Positions 1-9,104 of a stretch of 32,362 nt of DNA are shown in pieces. Origin of the DNA: Gammaproteobacteria bacterium. Lineage in GTDB: Bacteria > Pseudomonadota > Gammaproteobacteria > Pseudomonadales > Azotimanducaceae. Below the pieces are notes generated by a model. That model searched no databases, was not told the origin of the DNA, and saw nothing but the letters and a program-made list of their open reading frames with translations. Positions within the stretch are counted from its first letter, which is position 1. The number at the start of each line of letters is the position of its first letter. The DNA lies in NCBI GenBank assembly GCA_002728675.1, contig PBVL01000094.1, positions 1 to 32,362 on the forward strand. The letters are read 5' to 3'. Position numbers and translations under genes: made by a program.

Positions 1-1034
1 CCTTCCCAGCCGAGTCCGCGGTTGCCCATGATTTCCACCATGAGTTCGTCTTTCTCCTGGTTCATCTTCGCCCAGGCGACTTTCATGATGCCGATGGCGG
101 GGGACGGTCCGTGCACGGCCGCCTCCTCGTTGAAGCGGTGCGCGGTGAGGCCAAAGGAATGGGCCAGCATCTTCTGGCGCGCGATCCGCTCGCGCAGGGC
201 GCCGTCGGCAAGCCTGCCGCCTTCCATGGGCAGATAGTCCCGGGCGGCGTCTTCCAGTTCGTAGCTCCGGGTGCCGGAGCCCCCCATGCCGGCGATGCCC
301 TGACGCTCGTGCAGCAACAGGTGCTTGCCGATTGACCAGCCCTTGTTGAGATCGCCGATCAGGTTTTCTTTCGGGATGACGACGTCGGTGAAGAACACCT
401 CGTTGAACGGTGACGCGCCGGAGATGAGCTGGATCGGCTTCACCTCGACGCCGGGCGACTTCATGTCGAGCGTCATGAAGCTGATCCCTTCGTACTTGCT
501 GCCCCGGTCGGTGCGGAACACGCCGTACATCCAGTCCGACTCCAATGCGCCCGACGTCCAGATCTTGGAACCGTTCAGGACGAAGTGATCACCTTTGTCT
601 TCGGCGAAACTCTGCAGGCTCGCGAGGTCCGAACCCGCGCCCGGCTCCGAGTAGCCCTGGCACCAGTGGATGTCGCCGCGGATGATCGGAGGCAGGTAAC
701 GCTGCTTCTGCTCCTCGGTTGCGATGTCGAGCAGCGTCGGCCCGAACATCATCACGCCGAAGCCGCCAATCGGGTTGAAGGCGCCGGCAGTGCGCATTTC
801 CTCGCGCAGCACGGCGGCTTCCTCGGGGGAGAGTCCGCCGCCGCCGTACTCGGCAGGCCAGTTTGGAGTGGACCAGCCTTTCTCCCCCAGCCGCTCCTGC
901 CAGAGCTTCATGTCGCCGTCGAATTTCGCACCGAAGCCGGCCGGGACGGGTGGCGGCTTGCCTTTCAGTGATGCGGGAAAGTTCTCAGCAAGCCACGTAC
1001 GCGCGGTCTCGCGGAAGGCGGTGAGGTCTGACAT
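1..1034 (-). CDS. Acyl-CoA dehydrogenase family protein, 3' end truncated by window edge
   Basis: My reverse-strand translation from ATG at 1034 reads MSDLTAFRETARTWLAENFPASLKG...WSTPNWPAEYGGGGLSPEEAAVL...WCQGYSEPGAGSDLASLQ...FVLNGSKIWTSGA, typical ACAD motifs. It stays open to coordinate 1, so it is missing from the ORF track. Confidence 0.93.
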   Translation of the reverse strand, partial: MSDLTAFRETARTWLAENFPASLKGKPPPVPAGFGAKFDGDMKLWQERLGEKGWSTPNWPAEYGGGGLSPEEAAVLREEMRTAGAFNPIGGFGVMMFGPTLLDIATEEQKQRYLPPIIRGDIHWCQGYSEPGAGSDLASLQSFAEDKGDHFVLNGSKIWTSGALESDWMYGVFRTDRGSKYEGISFMTLDMKSPGVEVKPIQLISGASPFNEVFFTDVVIPKENLIGDLNKGWSIGKHLLLHERQGIAGMGGSGTRSYELEDAARDYLPMEGGRLADGALRERIARQKMLAHSFGLTAHRFNEEAAVHGPSPAIGIMKVAWAKMNQEKDELMVEIMGNRGLGWE

Positions 1035-1132
1035 TTGGCGGTGCTCGTGAATCTCGGTTGCGCCGATGATATAGCGATCTGGCCCTCGTGTACGTAGGAT
1101 GGCGGGGTCAACGAAGAAAGAAGGGATGCAAG

Positions 1133-1564
1133 ATGATCGTAGGCCTCGACCACATCGGTGTGGTGGCACATTCAATCGACCAGGCGGTCGACGTACTGCA
1201 GAACCAGATGGGATTCCCGCTCGATCTGTCGCGTTCGCCGCTGCCTGATGGCGCGTACTTCGCGCCCGAGGGAACACACAACTATTTCTTCCAGGTCGGC
1301 GAGGGCGAGACGCAGATCGAGGTGCTCATCCCCGTGCTGGAAGAGAAGGGCACCTACAAGTACCTGCAGCGTTTCGGCGCCGGGCTCCATCACTGGGGCT
1401 ATGGCTGCGACGACGTGGAAGTCGAAGCAGCGCGCCTTTCGGCACAGGGCCTGCGCCGGATCGATCTGGGCGAGCCTCCGGGGAGCAAGGTCACGGCTGC
1501 CTTCTTCCACCCGAAAACAGCAAACGGCATTCTCACCGAGCTCGTGCCCGCGCGACCCCGCTGA
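1133..1564 (+). CDS. VOC (glyoxalase/methylmalonyl-CoA epimerase-like) family protein
   Basis: MIVGLDHIGVVAHSIDQAVDVLQNQMGFPLDL...GTHNYFFQVGEGETQIEVLIPV...GLHHWGYGCDDVE; internal ATG at 1133 preceded by a purine-rich gaaagaaggg RBS. Confidence 0.85.
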   Translation: MIVGLDHIGVVAHSIDQAVDVLQNQMGFPLDLSRSPLPDGAYFAPEGTHNYFFQVGEGETQIEVLIPVLEEKGTYKYLQRFGAGLHHWGYGCDDVEVEAARLSAQGLRRIDLGEPPGSKVTAAFFHPKTANGILTELVPARPR

Positions 1565-1589
1565 TACAGCGGCAAGCGCGGCACCGACG

Positions 1590-2363
1590 ATGCGGCAGGT
1601 CAGCGTCACGCGCTACGTGACGCCGCTCAAGGAGGGCGGCTCACTCCCGGCGATTGTCGAAGCGGACGATGACGGGCTCTACGTGCTGAAGTTTCGTGGC
1701 GCGAGACAGGGGGAACGCGCGCTCGTCGCGGAACTGATCGGCGGCGGGATCGCCCGGGCGCTCGGTTTGCGGATGCCGGAGATTGTCCTCGTCGACGTTG
1801 ATCCGGCGCTTGCGAGCACCGAACCGGATGCCGAGATTCAGGACCTGATCCGCGCCAGTGCGGGCATCAACCTTGGGCTGGATTACCTGCCCGGTTCGCT
1901 CGGCTTCGACCCGGTGGTTGCCGACCCGGATCCCGACCTCGCGTCCCGGATCGTCTGGCTGGATGCCTATCTCTGTAACGTCGACCGGACGGCCCGCAAT
2001 ACGAACCTGCTGACCTGGCACGGCGATACCTGGCTCATCGATCACGGCGCAGCGCTCTATTTCCACCACGGTGATGCACCGTTCGAGACGCGGGTTGCCG
2101 ACCCGTTTCCGCTCATTCGCGACCACGTGCCGTTGCCCTGCGCGACGAGTCTCGCGTCGGTCGCGCCGAAGCTCACTGAACGCCTCGATGCTGATCTGAT
2201 TCAAGCCATCTTGGCAGAGATTCCGGATGCCTGGCTGCAGCACCCTGCCTATGCGGACGCGGCGGGCACACGGGCCGGCTACGTTGAATTCCTGATCCGG
2301 CGGCTTGATGCGCCGCAGGCGTTCGTGCAGGAGGCGCTGGATGCCATCCCGGCACCTGTTTGA
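1590..2363 (+). CDS. HipA-like kinase family protein (HipA_2 type)
   Basis: MRQVSVTRYVTPLKEGGSLPAIVEADDDGLYVLKFRGARQGERALVAELIGGGIARALGL...WLDAYLCNVDRTARNTNLL...TWLIDHGAALYFHH; Lys in YVLKF, NxDR..RNTN and IDHG motifs as in HipA-like kinases. The longer track ORF (from 1158) overlaps the VOC gene. Confidence 0.82.
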   Translation: MRQVSVTRYVTPLKEGGSLPAIVEADDDGLYVLKFRGARQGERALVAELIGGGIARALGLRMPEIVLVDVDPALASTEPDAEIQDLIRASAGINLGLDYLPGSLGFDPVVADPDPDLASRIVWLDAYLCNVDRTARNTNLLTWHGDTWLIDHGAALYFHHGDAPFETRVADPFPLIRDHVPLPCATSLASVAPKLTERLDADLIQAILAEIPDAWLQHPAYADAAGTRAGYVEFLIRRLDAPQAFVQEALDAIPAPV

Positions 2364-2757
2364 ATACGCGGTGCTCCAGGTTGTGCCGAGGGTCGACCGG
2401 GACGAGCGCATCAACGTTGGGGTCATGCTCTGGAGCGCCGGCGCGGACTTTCTCGATGCGATGTGCGAGGTCGACGCGGGGAAACTCAGGGCGATCGATC
2501 CCGGGGCGGGTATTGGCGCGATTCAGGGACACCTCACGGCGCTGCAGGCTGAATGCCGGGGTGATCCGGGCAGCGGCCCGATTGGAGCATTGCCGAACCG
2601 CGAGCGTTTCCTCATGCTTGCCGCGCCCAGGAGTACAGTGATTCAGCCGTCACCGATCCACACCGGACTGTGCGGCGACCCCGCGGAGACGCTCACGGCA
2701 CTGTTCGGGCGCCTCGTAGCCACACCGGAGTTATCCCATGTCAGAACCGACGATTGA
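2341..2757 (+). CDS. DUF3037 domain-containing protein
   Basis: MPSRHLFEYAVLQVVPRVDRDERINVGVMLWSAGADFLDAMCEVDAGKL, characteristic DUF3037 N-terminus; start lies inside the end of the HipA-like gene. Confidence 0.78.
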   Translation: MPSRHLFEYAVLQVVPRVDRDERINVGVMLWSAGADFLDAMCEVDAGKLRAIDPGAGIGAIQGHLTALQAECRGDPGSGPIGALPNRERFLMLAAPRSTVIQPSPIHTGLCGDPAETLTALFGRLVATPELSHVRTDD

Positions 2758-3487
2758 TCCCAATCCCACAGTAGTTGCGCAGCTTGCACCGAAAGGACGG
2801 TTGCGCGCCGCGATCAACATGTCGAATTTTCTGCTGGTCGTCGGCAAGACGGACGAGGGGTTGCCGGTCGGCCCCTCGCCGGATGTTGCCGGCGAGATTG
2901 CGCGACGACTTGGCGTTGCACTCGAACTCGCGCCGTATCGGACACCCAGCGACATTGCGGCGGCGGCCGGCGCGGACGAATGGGACATAGCGAACATTGG
3001 CGCGGAGCCGCAGCGAGCCGCGGTGATTGACTTCACGGCCGCGTACTCGGAAATCGAGGCGACCTACCTCGTGCCGCCTGATTCGCCGATTCAGGACGTG
3101 TCCGAGGTCGACGTGTCCGGCAACATAATCTCTGTCGCCGCCGGTAGCGCGTACGGGCTGTGGCTCGAGAACAACGTGCAGCACGCGGATCTGAGGGCGA
3201 TCAAAGGCAACGCGTTCGAGCAGTTTGTCGAGGGTTCGATGGACGCGCTTGCCGGTCTGCGCAGCGGGCTCGTCCGGGACGTCGAGCGGCTGCCGGGATC
3301 GCGCATCCTGCCTGGGCAGTTCACCGCGGTGCAGCAGGCCGTGGGCGTGAACAAAGGAAACCCGGAAGCGCACGCGTGGCTCTCAGCCTTCGTCGAAGAG
3401 ATCAAGGCGAGCGGGTTCGTTGCGGGACTGATCGAGCGGCACGGGGTGACGGGTCAGCTGTCTGTCGCACCGGCTGCCGCTCGGTAA
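2738..3487 (+). CDS. Family 3 extracellular solute-binding-like protein (ABC transporter SBP fold), no signal peptide evident
   Basis: LAPKGRLRAAINMSNFLLVVGKTDEGLPVGPSPDVAGEIARRLGVALELAPYRTPSDIAAAAGADEWDIANIGAEPQRAAVIDFTAAYSEIEATYLVP, SBP_bac_3 pattern; N-terminus MSEPTIDPNPTVVAQL is not a signal peptide. Confidence 0.8.
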   Translation: MSEPTIDPNPTVVAQLAPKGRLRAAINMSNFLLVVGKTDEGLPVGPSPDVAGEIARRLGVALELAPYRTPSDIAAAAGADEWDIANIGAEPQRAAVIDFTAAYSEIEATYLVPPDSPIQDVSEVDVSGNIISVAAGSAYGLWLENNVQHADLRAIKGNAFEQFVEGSMDALAGLRSGLVRDVERLPGSRILPGQFTAVQQAVGVNKGNPEAHAWLSAFVEEIKASGFVAGLIERHGVTGQLSVAPAAAR

Positions 3488-3493
3488 TATCGG

Positions 3494-4227
3494 TCACACG
3501 GAGCGGCTGCGTCGCCAGCGCATGCCAAAGAGCGCGACTGCCAGCAGGGTGAGCATGCCCGGGGCCGGAATCGCCGCTAGGTTGTTGTTCACGATTCCTG
3601 CGTCGACGCTGTTGAGCGTGTAACCCGTCGGCAGATTGAAGACACCGACGTCCGCAAGACCGAGCGACGCCGAGCCGTTTTCGGCACCGCTCACAGAGTC
3701 CCTGAGGCGGAAGTCTCCGATATAGCCGAACGTCACCGGTGTATTGAGTTGAACGGTTGCATTCGACGTCAGCACGTTGCGGACGCCTGGGGTCGTGAAG
3801 CTGTCGCTGAACTCGTTGAGGCCGCCGTTGATCTTGGCCTGGACAATCATGCGCTCGTTGGTCGGGCCGCCGGATATCCAATCGGCGACGAGGTTGGCAG
3901 ACACCGAAATGAAGCCGTTGTCGGTTGGGTCCGACAGGTTGGTGAAGATCAGGTCGGTGAATGTGATGACGCCGCGCATGTCGACCGTAGCGGTCATTCC
4001 CCCGCCCGTCGCGGCCAGCCGGACATGGTCATCAGCGCCGGGGTCAGTTCGACGCGGCCACATGTACGCCCGGAGCCTGGTACGTCGTAGCAGTCGCTGA
4101 CGGTGTTCGTGCCGGTCGCGAAGACCTGGTTGAGTGGCGAGAGCTCGAGACTCGAGTCATAGATCGGCGCGGCGATTCCGGCGCATGCAACTGCGCTCAG
4201 GCAAACAGCGAATGCAAGTCGAAACAT
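3494..4227 (-). CDS. PEP-CTERM sorting-domain protein, apparently frameshifted (two ORFs: 3994-4227 N-part, 3494-4063 C-part)
   Basis: N-part has a signal peptide (MFRLAFAVCLSAVACAGIAAPIYDSS); C-part ends IPAPGMLTLLAVALFGMRWRRSRSV (PEP-CTERM-like anchor). Frame change near 4017-4020. Confidence 0.72.
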
Positions 4228-4280
4228 GGGTCATCTCCCTGAATGAGTGACCCCATGTTGGTCCTTAGCGCTGCGGTTCC

Positions 4281-4300
4281 GTCAGTACTTTAGTACCGAC
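4281..4300. promoter_or_regulatory. Dyad upstream of the PEP-CTERM gene, candidate operator
   Basis: GTCaGTACTttAGTACcGAC: 9-bp arms with one mismatch; flanked by a direct repeat TACCGAC-tt-TACCGAC. Confidence 0.35.
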
Positions 4301-4417
4301 TTTACCGACGCGCCATACACCCGATACACCCGAAAGTGCTGACGCACCCGGCCCCTCCCGCAGAGCGATCGGGCACCGGGCGGCAAACTACGGGTCCGAC
4401 CGAAGCCGGACTTTGGA

Positions 4418-6085
4418 CTATGCGCTCTGGTTGGAGCGCAGGACGCGACCCGCCCGCGCGCCGGTGTGTTCGTCGTCCCGCAGAATCACCTGCCCGTTGA
4501 CGAGTGTCGCGGCATAACCCGCGCCACGCTGGATGAGCCTGCTGTTGTCGTGGGGGAAGTCCCGCACCATCTGCGGAATACGTTCTTCGACCTTGTCGAG
4601 GTCGAGCACGTTCACGTCCGCGCGCTTGCCAACCGCGAGTTCGCCGCGATCGCCCAGTGCGAGTACCTTGGCCGCACGCTGCGTCATGCGCTGAATCGCC
4701 GACTCGATGGGAAGCTTGCCCGTGTCGCGTACCCAATGACTGAGGAAGAACGACGGCCAGCCGGAATCCATGATCTGGCCCACGTGCGCGCCCGCGTCGC
4801 CCAGCCCCGGCACGACCCAGTCGCGGTCCATCAGTTGCTCGACCGCGTCGAAATGCATGTTGAAGAACGGACGGTGGAAGGTGGCCTTGCCGTCAGTCTC
4901 CAACTGCATCCGCAGCCAGGTCTCGGCGGGATGTTCACCAGCGGCTTTGGCCATCGCGGTAAGGTTGTCTTCAGGGGGACGGGTGTACACGGGGCGTGCT
5001 CCGTCGCCCATCCAGCGCAAGCCGGCTGCGAACGTGTCGCTCTGCGGGTCGTTTTTCGCGTCGTCGATCAGTGCCTGCCGGAACTCATCGTTGCGGATTG
5101 CTGCGAGCCGTTCGTCCATGTCGACTTCACGCAGTTTGCTCCATGCGGGGAAAAAGATGTTGTTGCGGAGGGTCGATACGAAACCGCCGGGACGCGGCAC
5201 GGTGGTGCCGTAGATCTCGCAGCCCTGTTCGCGATACTTCTCCACGATGTGGTGCGGGTCGTCGAACCTGAAGGACTCGGTCTCGACCACGCTGAAGAGC
5301 ACGCGAAGTTTGCCATGGGTCGCTTCTTCGCCCAGGTACTCGAGGTCGGTCTCGATCGCGTCTTTCGAGTACCAGGGTACGGTCTGCATCAGCCCGTTCG
5401 CGGCGCCGACGGCGGCTGCGATTGCTTTCAGTTCCTTCAACTCGGCGTAGGTCCCGGGGATTGCCCTGCCGTCCGGAAGCCGATGTCCTGGGAGCCGGTT
5501 CGTCGAAAAGCCGATTGCACCGTCCCGAACGGAGTTGCCCGCGATCTCTGCGATCCGCGCAATCTCCTCGTCGGTCGGGTTCTCGTCGATGCCGCGCGCG
5601 CCCATCACGTAGTAGCGAATGGCGGCGTGCCCGACCATGCCGGTCACGTTGATGCCGGGGTCCAGTTTCTCGATCGAGTCGAGGTACTCGCCGTACGACT
5701 CCCAGTCCCACGGCAGTCCGGAGAGAATGGCCTCACGCGGGATGTCCTCCACAGTCTCCATCATCTCCGCGAGGAAGTTGCGATCCGCGGGTTTGCAGGG
5801 CGCAAAGGTCACGGCGCAGTTACCCATGAGCGCGGTCGTCACGCCATGCCAGGAGCTTGGGGTGAGCATCGGGTCCCAGCCGATCTGGGCGTCGAGGTGG
5901 GTGTGCAGGTCGATGAAACCCGGCGTGACGACTTTGCCGCGCGCGTCGATCTCCTGCTTTGCCCCGCCGTCAACCTTGCCAACCGCGACGATCGTGTCGC
6001 CGTCGATTGCGACGTCACCTTCAAAGGCCGTGCTGCCCGTCCCGTCGACGATGCTCCCGCCGCGGATGATCATGTCGTGCGCCAT
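4418..6085 (-). CDS. N-acyl-D-amino-acid deacylase family amidohydrolase
   Basis: MAHDMIIRGGSIVDGTGSTAFEGDVAIDGDTIVAVG...VVTPGFIDLHTHLDAQIGWDPMLTPSSWHGVTTALMGNCAVTFAPCKP...LGDAGAHVGQIMDSGWPSFFLSHWVRD; amidohydrolase_3/D-aminoacylase motifs. Start set at 6085, behind a GGAG motif. Confidence 0.88.
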   Translation of the reverse strand: MAHDMIIRGGSIVDGTGSTAFEGDVAIDGDTIVAVGKVDGGAKQEIDARGKVVTPGFIDLHTHLDAQIGWDPMLTPSSWHGVTTALMGNCAVTFAPCKPADRNFLAEMMETVEDIPREAILSGLPWDWESYGEYLDSIEKLDPGINVTGMVGHAAIRYYVMGARGIDENPTDEEIARIAEIAGNSVRDGAIGFSTNRLPGHRLPDGRAIPGTYAELKELKAIAAAVGAANGLMQTVPWYSKDAIETDLEYLGEEATHGKLRVLFSVVETESFRFDDPHHIVEKYREQGCEIYGTTVPRPGGFVSTLRNNIFFPAWSKLREVDMDERLAAIRNDEFRQALIDDAKNDPQSDTFAAGLRWMGDGARPVYTRPPEDNLTAMAKAAGEHPAETWLRMQLETDGKATFHRPFFNMHFDAVEQLMDRDWVVPGLGDAGAHVGQIMDSGWPSFFLSHWVRDTGKLPIESAIQRMTQRAAKVLALGDRGELAVGKRADVNVLDLDKVEERIPQMVRDFPHDNSRLIQRGAGYAATLVNGQVILRDDEHTGARAGRVLRSNQSA

Positions 6086-6158
6086 GCTGTGCTCCTCCAA
6101 TGCTTGTCTGCCGCCACTGTAGCGCGTCTGATCGCCGCGCGTCTTGTAGACTGCACCG

Positions 6159-7391
6159 ATGGCTGAAGCATCGAGCAACACACTGAACGTGAAGGCAGTC
6201 GGGCTGATTTCAGGTGCCCACCTGTACAGTCACTTCTACATTCTCCTGTTGCCGCCGCTGTTCCCTCTGCTCACCGGCGAACTCGACGTGGGTTTCACAG
6301 AACTGGGATTTGCCATCACGGTCTTCAGTCTGGTCACCGGCCTGACCCAGACGCCTGTCGGGTTCCTCGTCGATCGGGTGGGTGCGAGGCTCCTGCTCAT
6401 CGCGGCGCTCGTCGCCGAGTCGATCGCATTCATCGTCATTGCGATTGCCCCGAGCTATCCCATGCTGCTTGTCATGATGGGCCTGGCGGGCCTTGCGAAT
6501 GCCGTCTATCACCCCGCGGACTACTCGATCCTGAATGGTTCCGTCGGTGAGAAGCACATCGGGCGTGCGTTTTCGGTTCATACCGCGAGTGGCTTCTTCG
6601 GCGGCTTTCTCGCGCCCGCAATCGTGCTTCCGCTGACAACCGTGATCGGGTGGCAGTGGGCGGTGGGGCTCTCCGCTGCGACTGGTCTCGGCATGGCCCT
6701 GGTGCTCGTTGTGGGAGCGGGCGCGCTCCAGGATGCTGACAATCGCGATGAGGCCGACGGCGCCGCGGAGGGGCAAAGCGGGTTAGCCGTGCTCCTTTCC
6801 GTGCCGGTGCTCATGGGGTTGCTCTTCTATGTCGGAATTTCGACATCGGGACACGGCGTCAGCGACTTCAGCGTGTCCGCGCTGGGGGAGATGTACCCGG
6901 CTGCGCTCACCACCCTGGGTGGCGTCCTGCTCGCCTACCTCTTCGCCAATCCCGTGGGTGTCCTCGCCGGAGGCTGGATTGCTGACTCGATCAAGCGCCA
7001 CGATGTCTTTGCCGCCGCATGCTTCGTTGGCGTCGCGCTGCCGCTCTTCGCCATTGCGGGGCTTGATCTGCCCCTGATCGTGGTCGCCGCGGCGCTCTTT
7101 GTCGTTGGCTTTCTGAACGGGGTGGTCTCACCTTCACGGGACATGCTGATTCGCGCGATGACGCCGCCGGGCCAGATGGGCAAGGTGTTCGGCTTCGTAT
7201 CGACGGGCTTCAACATTGGCGGGATCATCGCCCCGCCCGCGTTCGGTTGGTTGCTCGACCAGGGCAGCCCGACAAGCGTTTATTGGGGCGCGGGACTCGT
7301 CGCCTTGCTGACTGTTCCGACCGTACTGGTGACCGGACTGCAGGGGCGTCGCGCGGCTACGCGCTGGGCCGCTGAAGACGCGCCTGCCTGA
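6159..7391 (+). CDS. MFS transporter
   Basis: About 12 hydrophobic segments; FLVDRVGARLLLIAALVAES, GLANAVYHPADYSILNGSVGEKHIGRAFSVHTASGFFGGFLAPAIVLPL. Confidence 0.9.
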   Translation: MAEASSNTLNVKAVGLISGAHLYSHFYILLLPPLFPLLTGELDVGFTELGFAITVFSLVTGLTQTPVGFLVDRVGARLLLIAALVAESIAFIVIAIAPSYPMLLVMMGLAGLANAVYHPADYSILNGSVGEKHIGRAFSVHTASGFFGGFLAPAIVLPLTTVIGWQWAVGLSAATGLGMALVLVVGAGALQDADNRDEADGAAEGQSGLAVLLSVPVLMGLLFYVGISTSGHGVSDFSVSALGEMYPAALTTLGGVLLAYLFANPVGVLAGGWIADSIKRHDVFAAACFVGVALPLFAIAGLDLPLIVVAAALFVVGFLNGVVSPSRDMLIRAMTPPGQMGKVFGFVSTGFNIGGIIAPPAFGWLLDQGSPTSVYWGAGLVALLTVPTVLVTGLQGRRAATRWAAEDAPA

Positions 7392-7410: not shown

Positions 7411-8334
7411 TCAGAGGTACGCGCGGTACTGGGCAACCCAGTCGAAGCCCACTAGTTCGACGTACGCGTCCATCAGGCGCCGTGTGACCGGGCCGGGAAC
7501 GGGTCCCGGCGCATGGCCGACGGTTCGTGCGTTGAACGACTTCACGGGGGCAATGCACATGCTCGTGGAGGTCAGAAAGATCTCATTGGCGTTGGCCGCG
7601 TCGTGGAAGTCGAGGTCCTGTTCGCGATGCTCGATACCCAGCTGTGCGCACAGATCGAACACAACCTGCCGTGACACACCCGGGAGTACAAACTGTTCCC
7701 GCGGCGTCAGGCACACGCCGTCCCGGACGAGGAAGATGTTCGCGCCGAGGCCCTCAGCGAGATTCCCGTTGTGATCCAGCAGAATCGGGTATCCCGAGTC
7801 GGGCGGCAACGCCATGCCGGCCATGATCAGGTTGAGGTAGTTGTGGGTCTTGGCTCGTGGCGTGAGCGCATCGGGTGACGTGCGGCGGATCGGCGAGATC
7901 ACGACGTCGACCCCGTCCCCGTAGAAGGGTGCGCGTTCGGCGAGCGGCAGCGGGCGACATTCGACGATCAGGGTTGCGCCCGGCTGCTCCCACCCTTCGT
8001 CCCCGACGTCTGCGAGGCCCCGCGACACGCGTTGTGCGACCCAATAGTCGGTATCCGGACCGAGCAGGTGCGCGTTGCGCGCGAGCACCTCATGGCTGAT
8101 CGCGACCATCTCGTCCGGTGCAATGCCCGGTTCGATCTGCATCGCACGCAGGGAGTCGTAGAGTCGCCCGACGTGCTCTTCGATGCGGAAGATATCGCCG
8201 CCGAAGGTGCGGGTCATGTCGAAGACGGCGTCTCCGTACAGGAACCCCTTGTCGCGAAACGGCAGACGAATGTCGCCTTCGGGGAGATACTTACCGTTGT
8301 AATACGCAATGCGCGCGTTCTGCCCCGCCTTCAT
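7411..8334 (-). CDS. Aminotransferase class IV (branched-chain / D-amino-acid aminotransferase-like)
   Basis: MKAGQNARIAYYNGKYLPEGDIRLPFRDKGFLYGDAVFDMTRTF...RAKTHNYLNLIMAG...LLDHNGNLAEGLGANIFLVRDGVCLTP; start ATGA overlaps the upstream gene's stop. Confidence 0.88.
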   Translation of the reverse strand: MKAGQNARIAYYNGKYLPEGDIRLPFRDKGFLYGDAVFDMTRTFGGDIFRIEEHVGRLYDSLRAMQIEPGIAPDEMVAISHEVLARNAHLLGPDTDYWVAQRVSRGLADVGDEGWEQPGATLIVECRPLPLAERAPFYGDGVDVVISPIRRTSPDALTPRAKTHNYLNLIMAGMALPPDSGYPILLDHNGNLAEGLGANIFLVRDGVCLTPREQFVLPGVSRQVVFDLCAQLGIEHREQDLDFHDAANANEIFLTSTSMCIAPVKSFNARTVGHAPGPVPGPVTRRLMDAYVELVGFDWVAQYRAYL

Positions 8335-9104
8335 TTCCACAGGTACCCCTTCGCGGTTGTCCGGTAGGTTTTGGTGAACGCAATGTCAGGCATGCAGCCC
8401 GCCTTTGCCATGGGTTCGCCCAGCGCCAGGTGGCGCGGGTCGTCGCGATGTTGCTCCATCGCTGCGAGGTCGGTGCAGGCCATGACGAACACGAGGTCCG
8501 CCTCGACATCGACCCCATAGGCCTGGTCAGCGACGGACAGTCCGCCACTGTAGACGAGCGTTTCAGGTTCGGCCTCGCGGCAGTAGTCGGCGTGGCCGCC
8601 GGAGATTTCGATGAATGCGTCCCGCTCTGCGTCGCCCGCGAAGTTCATGCCGAGGAAGATGACGAGTGCGCCTTCGTTGGCAAAGAACGATTGACGCTCG
8701 GGCCGCGACCACCACCCGTAACCCGGCAGGTCGACGAACTTCGAGATGAACGTCCGTTTCATGTTGACGCCGCTGTCACCCAGTGCTCTGGCGATTTCGG
8801 CGTGCGACGGGCGCTGCATATGGAAGGCCAGGCCGGCATCGCCGGTCGTATAGCGCTCGTAGGCGAGGACGCGCGTCGGGTCTTCGACCGACACCATGGC
8901 CTCGTAGGCGCAGGTCTCGGGTTCGAAGTCACGCGCATCGTCGCCGCGTGGCCCCCACAGGGTGAGCCATTCGTCCATCGACATATCGTCGGCCGGGACC
9001 TCGAACTCGACGATGGCGGTCATGGGGCCTTCGACTGTCGGACTCTGTCGGGTCCCCTCAGGGCCTTGTTCGGGTCGTTCCGGGCTGTTGTTCTGGTCGC
9101 TCAT
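8331..9104 (-). CDS. Hypothetical protein with apparently two ABM-like (dimeric alpha/beta barrel) segments
   Basis: MTAIVEFEVPADDMSMDEWLTLWGP...YEAMVSVEDPTRVLAYERYTTGDAGLAFHMQRPSHAEIARAL, then EGALVIFLGMNFAGDAERDAFIEISGG...LVFVMACTDLAAMEQHRDDPRHLALGEPMAKAG. Confidence 0.6.
   Translation of the reverse strand: MSDQNNSPERPEQGPEGTRQSPTVEGPMTAIVEFEVPADDMSMDEWLTLWGPRGDDARDFEPETCAYEAMVSVEDPTRVLAYERYTTGDAGLAFHMQRPSHAEIARALGDSGVNMKRTFISKFVDLPGYGWWSRPERQSFFANEGALVIFLGMNFAGDAERDAFIEISGGHADYCREAEPETLVYSGGLSVADQAYGVDVEADLVFVMACTDLAAMEQHRDDPRHLALGEPMAKAGCMPDIAFTKTYRTTAKGYLWK

Follow-up and report, generated by a model that had tools for sequence, protein, structure and literature searches.

A widely conserved two-gene unit of a compact HipA_2 kinase and a single-domain DUF3037 protein, with incidental VOC and SBP neighbours

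The stretch of DNA analyzed here (the window; 32,362 nt) forms contig 11 in a genome that is fragmented into 252 contigs and is 91% complete with 7.6% contamination. Four plus-strand genes are packed together near its start, and an ORF check bore out the coordinates given in the initial annotation together with both overlaps, 23 nt between the kinase and DUF3037 genes and 20 nt between the DUF3037 and SBP genes; a gap of 25 nt separates the VOC gene from the kinase gene. The Pfam matches of all four ORFs were above the curated cut-offs. The features are:

1133-1564, plus strand: VOC (glyoxalase-fold) gene, ATG start; Pfam Glyoxalase_4, 6e-13; neighbour judged to lie outside the unit
1590-2363, plus strand: gene for the HipA_2 kinase, ATG start, product of 257 aa presumed to be the toxin; Pfam HipA_2, 2.4e-15; PADLOC PDC-M66A, 7e-25
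2329-2334, plus strand: AGGAGG, Shine-Dalgarno-like site for DUF3037 within the kinase ORF
2341-2363, plus strand: 23 nt over which the end of the kinase gene overlaps the start of the DUF3037 gene, conserved across compact loci
2341-2757, plus strand: gene for the DUF3037 partner, ATG start, product of 138 aa in the compact, single-domain form and presumed to be the antitoxin; Pfam DUF3037, 3.8e-37; PDC-M66B, 2.8e-6
2738-3487, plus strand: leaderless SBP_bac_3-like gene, ATG start; Pfam SBP_bac_3, 8.9e-16; neighbour judged to lie outside the unit

The assignment of the second gene as a HipA-like kinase was upheld by its match to Pfam HipA_2 (PF20613) at 56.9 bits against a cut-off of 27, covering positions 5-212 of the 240-position profile, and the product of the third gene matched PF11236 over the whole profile (1-118 of 118) at 127.6 bits, the cut-off being 22.6. 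An alignment of 58 kinases showed that the ATP/Mg-binding residues, on which the kinase assignment depended, are intact, with K34, E48, D132 and N137 invariant and D151 conserved at 98%. From the general features of protein-kinase-like folds, we take K34 and E48 to be the lysine/glutamate pair, D132 the catalytic aspartate and N137 and D151 the two Mg ligands. An AlphaFold2 model of the kinase built from three sequences (the window protein and two Actinomycetota homologues) had a mean pLDDT of 37 and a model of DUF3037 alone a mean pLDDT of 45, both too low for use. No credible relative emerged from sequence searches of the PDB, whether the query was the kinase itself or a profile of the kinase or of DUF3037.

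The neighbourhoods of 57 other HipA_2-DUF3037 loci (40 compact and 17 long) were compared, with flanks of at most about 5.5 kb each. The results showed that the kinase gene was directly upstream of the DUF3037 gene in 58/58 loci where both were found, the kinase frame being shortened in three long-form loci. When another gammaproteobacterial family (f35; 249 genomes) was searched separately with DUF3037 and with the kinase and the two genome lists were compared by eye, the same 86 genomes carried both genes and 163 carried neither; the pair was present in 24 of 54 genera, with compact pairs at one per genome. The statement in the initial annotation that DUF3037 genes occur next to this kinase type was thus confirmed. 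Among the 41 compact loci the two genes overlapped by 14 nt in 20, by 23 nt in 15 and by 20 nt in one, so that 36/41 have an overlap of 14-23 nt; four Actinomycetota loci had an overlap of 4 nt, and in one locus (L090) the overlap could not be placed. Records from Bacteroides and Parabacteroides likewise carry the 23 nt overlap in their annotation, and this form spans Pseudomonadota and Bacteroidota. A Shine-Dalgarno core was found within the kinase ORF immediately before the DUF3037 start in 34/41 compact loci. An overlap of the two genes by 14-23 nt in 36/41 compact loci is more than chance. Translational coupling, which had been proposed for both overlaps, is likely for the kinase and DUF3037 genes given the conserved 14-23 nt overlap and the Shine-Dalgarno core, whereas the 20 nt DUF3037/SBP overlap, like the 25 nt VOC/kinase gap, was seen in no other genome because the VOC and SBP neighbours are not conserved. 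Together, these data indicated that HipA_2 and DUF3037 (1590-2757) are a real, widely conserved two-gene unit, and we are highly confident that the compact pair works as a functional two-protein unit. Separately, plasmid SNP1 of Streptomyces nigrescens (L128, about 8001-8840) carries a compact-type HipA_2 kinase with no DUF3037 gene detected downstream, and the next readable frame after this kinase resembles a TetR-type regulator.

A tree of 55 kinases, obtained by a quick search without bootstrap, separated long-form from compact-form kinases with 100% SH-aLRT and very long branches (2.59 + 3.95), and in this sample of 55 the kinase clade matched the form of the DUF3037 partner exactly. The window kinase grouped with gammaproteobacterial compact kinases. 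Profile-profile comparison with hhalign matched the compact and long forms at 99.0% for the kinase and 98.6% for DUF3037, and on these profile matches the two clades are homologous in both proteins. The long DUF3037 partner carries about 150 extra C-terminal residues, a region missing from compact DUF3037; where intact, the long-form partner usually measures 271-286 aa. The Pfam HipA_2 profile fitted long kinases better and the DUF3037 profile fitted compact partners better. As a further observation, the PADLOC model M66A fitted compact kinases better than the long-form kinases sampled, while M66B fitted long DUF3037 better (L015, L028, L112, L122, L125); since the two models lean in opposite directions, their scores suggest that there may be an intermediate clade combining a compact-like kinase with a long partner.

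The pairing of a HipA-like kinase with DUF3037 is already published in its long form as PDC-M66, DS-6/HipAD and the Retron-Sda1 pair. PADLOC lists it as PDC-M66, a phage defence candidate, and both the M66A and M66B models are matched by the window proteins, whose genes adjoin. In one published study, the protection of E. coli against Bas51 by the HipA/DUF3037 genes of Retron-Sda1 does not depend on the retron, removal of the kinase abolishes defence and removal of DUF3037 is toxic (PMC12548924). In a second, DS-6 was renamed HipAD, a mutant of DS-6A in a predicted catalytic residue lost defence, and DS-6B, a fusion of DUF3037 with DUF1829, was modelled as binding the kinase (PMC13092281). Like this system as described there, the window holds two genes, for a HipA-like kinase with conserved catalytic residues and for a DUF3037 protein (PMC13092281), and both window proteins are homologous to those of long-form pairs, DS-6 itself being compared by description. 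In contrast, a deep split separates the clade of the window kinase from the long-form kinases. Moreover, DS-6B has a second domain and was modelled as contacting DNA (PMC13092281), whereas the window DUF3037 protein ends after its domain; at 138 aa it falls short of the long partner of PDC-M66 and HipAD (about 280 aa, including a second domain at the C-terminus) and matches PDC-M66B over positions 4-130 of 281 only. The likeness to hipBA and hipBST lies in kinase-type catalytic motifs (PMC8262856). At 257 aa compared with 440 aa for E. coli HipA the window kinase is small, as are the minimal HipT kinases (PMC8262856), but it has neither an HTH-type HipB nor a HipS partner, its neighbours being VOC and DUF3037, and an hhalign comparison of the compact kinase profile with full-length E. 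coli HipA gave no significant match (probability 1%, 21 columns). DUF3037 is not mentioned in a 2021 census of ten Hip gene organisations (PMC8262856). The accessible parts of the two phage-defence papers with DUF3037 do not treat the compact clade separately, although a supplementary neighbourhood file of the first may include it (PMC12548924, PMC13092281), and we found no published experiments on the compact clade.

The compact pairs lie in ordinary chromosomal surroundings, and no relatives of them were found in phage records or viral contigs. PADLOC matches were few among 141 compact-locus neighbours (AbiE genes and scattered single matches), and among the long-form loci there are two next to type I restriction-modification genes and others with MADS, ParE or phage-capsid genes nearby; this contrast is a rough one because many redundant PADLOC models match one gene. 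No neighbour family occurred in more than 9 of the 58 loci, and the largest groups confined to compact loci numbered six. We rejected the idea that the pair occupies a fixed chromosomal site, as the neighbours vary and form small syntenic groups only. Six f35 loci (L086, L088, L089, L090, L091, L094) have a DUF4031-like gene at varying distances of up to 3 kb from the compact pair, which probably reflects shared ancestry of the site. In their single copy per genome (f35), chromosomal setting and lack of viral relatives, the compact pairs are unlike many mobile defence or toxin-antitoxin genes.

By homology, the compact pair is probably a toxin-antitoxin unit, and this is the reading we favour. 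The compact kinase would be a growth-inhibiting toxin that phosphorylates a cellular target, and DUF3037 would bind and restrain it. Translation of DUF3037 would start within the kinase ORF, served by a Shine-Dalgarno-like site of its own; with start and site so placed, ribosomes that complete the kinase would go on to synthesise the partner and so keep the kinase neutralised, until a trigger, possibly phage infection, frees it. In favour of this we counted the co-occurrence and constant order of the two genes, the conserved overlap with its internal Shine-Dalgarno core, the catalytic residues, the homology to tested long pairs and the horizontal acquisition described below; against it we counted the clade split, the missing C-terminal region, the single copy per genome in f35, the ordinary surroundings, the lack of a phage or viral-contig relative and the S. 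nigrescens kinase (L128) that has no DUF3037 after it. The readings of the pair as toxin-antitoxin, as functional unit and as defence overlap, and the likelihoods we attach to them do not sum to one.

The compact pair might also be an active abortive-infection system against phages, as HipAD is, and be triggered when a phage infects the cell, although this is somewhat less probable than not: the homology to PDC-M66, DS-6/HipAD and the Retron-Sda1 pair and the horizontal acquisition described below speak for it, while the separate clade, the missing C-terminal region and the lack of enrichment beside defence genes in this sample speak against. Setting compact HipA_2-DUF3037 apart from those long-form systems that have been tested for phage defence makes it an answerable question whether the 'defence' label (PDC-M66, HipAD) can be carried over to the compact clade. 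We put forward only tentatively, as rather doubtful, that the compact clade constitutes a separate kinase/partner class, in which single-domain DUF3037 would control the kinase, the ribosome-binding site of the partner would lie in the part of the kinase gene that codes for its C-terminal end and the role would be a chromosomal one unlike long-form defence. It is unlikely that the kinase is a chromosomal regulatory or housekeeping enzyme with DUF3037 as an obligate subunit or activator, needed for its activity rather than inhibiting it; the single copy per genome across 24 of 54 f35 genera, the ordinary neighbours with few defence genes nearby and the want of viral relatives would fit such a role, but the patchy presence (86/249) and changing neighbours are unlike a core function, and a homologous long pair acts as toxin and antitoxin (PMC12548924).

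The toxin-antitoxin reading concerns the two inner genes; the initial annotation had extended the module to the outer two, proposing a kinase/partner/sensor assembly. The gene-neighbourhood comparison spoke against this, as no homologue of the window VOC or SBP (E<0.01) was present among neighbouring ORFs within 5.5 kb in any of the 57 other loci (0/57). Within the window's own family, orthologues of the SBP (G001, G008, G019; 58-69% identity) had no kinase homologue, DUF3037 or VOC of the window type nearby, and orthologues of the VOC (G002, G004, G018; 71-87% identity) had no kinase homologue, DUF3037 or SBP nearby. DUF3037 was absent from 36/36 other sampled genomes of the family. Since the pair is missing from these genomes while the flanking genes have family orthologues, it looks horizontally acquired, and since those orthologues are not linked to the pair, it most likely came in alone, into a setting of genes native to the lineage. 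A wrongly binned contig was thought unlikely, as the best matches of the flanking VOC and SBP come from the same family. The window contains no tRNA and no long repeats bracket the pair, and GC content is even across positions 1-7000 (0.61-0.66). The linkage of SBP and VOC to the pair is incidental, and both lie outside the unit. Tight packing and the 20 nt overlap would allow co-expression in the window genome, where alone co-transcription of DUF3037 and SBP is possible, but a four-gene module, in which the SBP would bind a ligand and the VOC handle a small molecule to control the kinase jointly, is largely refuted by these neighbourhood data and is highly improbable. What is removed is an attractive kinase/sensor story; the conserved unit is HipA_2 with DUF3037.

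Several observations concern the genes around the pair. On the minus strand, window positions 3494-4063 encode a possible PEP-CTERM-anchored small protein, whose C-terminal motif is weak and scores below cut-off. The VOC protein resembles methylmalonyl-CoA epimerase at 65.6 bits, far under the family cut-off of 114.95. The description of the SBP as leaderless was sound, since no signal peptide was seen by eye and the start region is likewise leaderless in same-family relatives; this SBP_bac_3-like protein (2738-3487) is a stand-alone gene in some genomes of the family (L012, L013, L014). With ancestral cyclohexadienyl dehydratase constructs as its top PDB matches (E about 8e-9), the protein might be an enzyme of the SBP fold and not part of a transporter.
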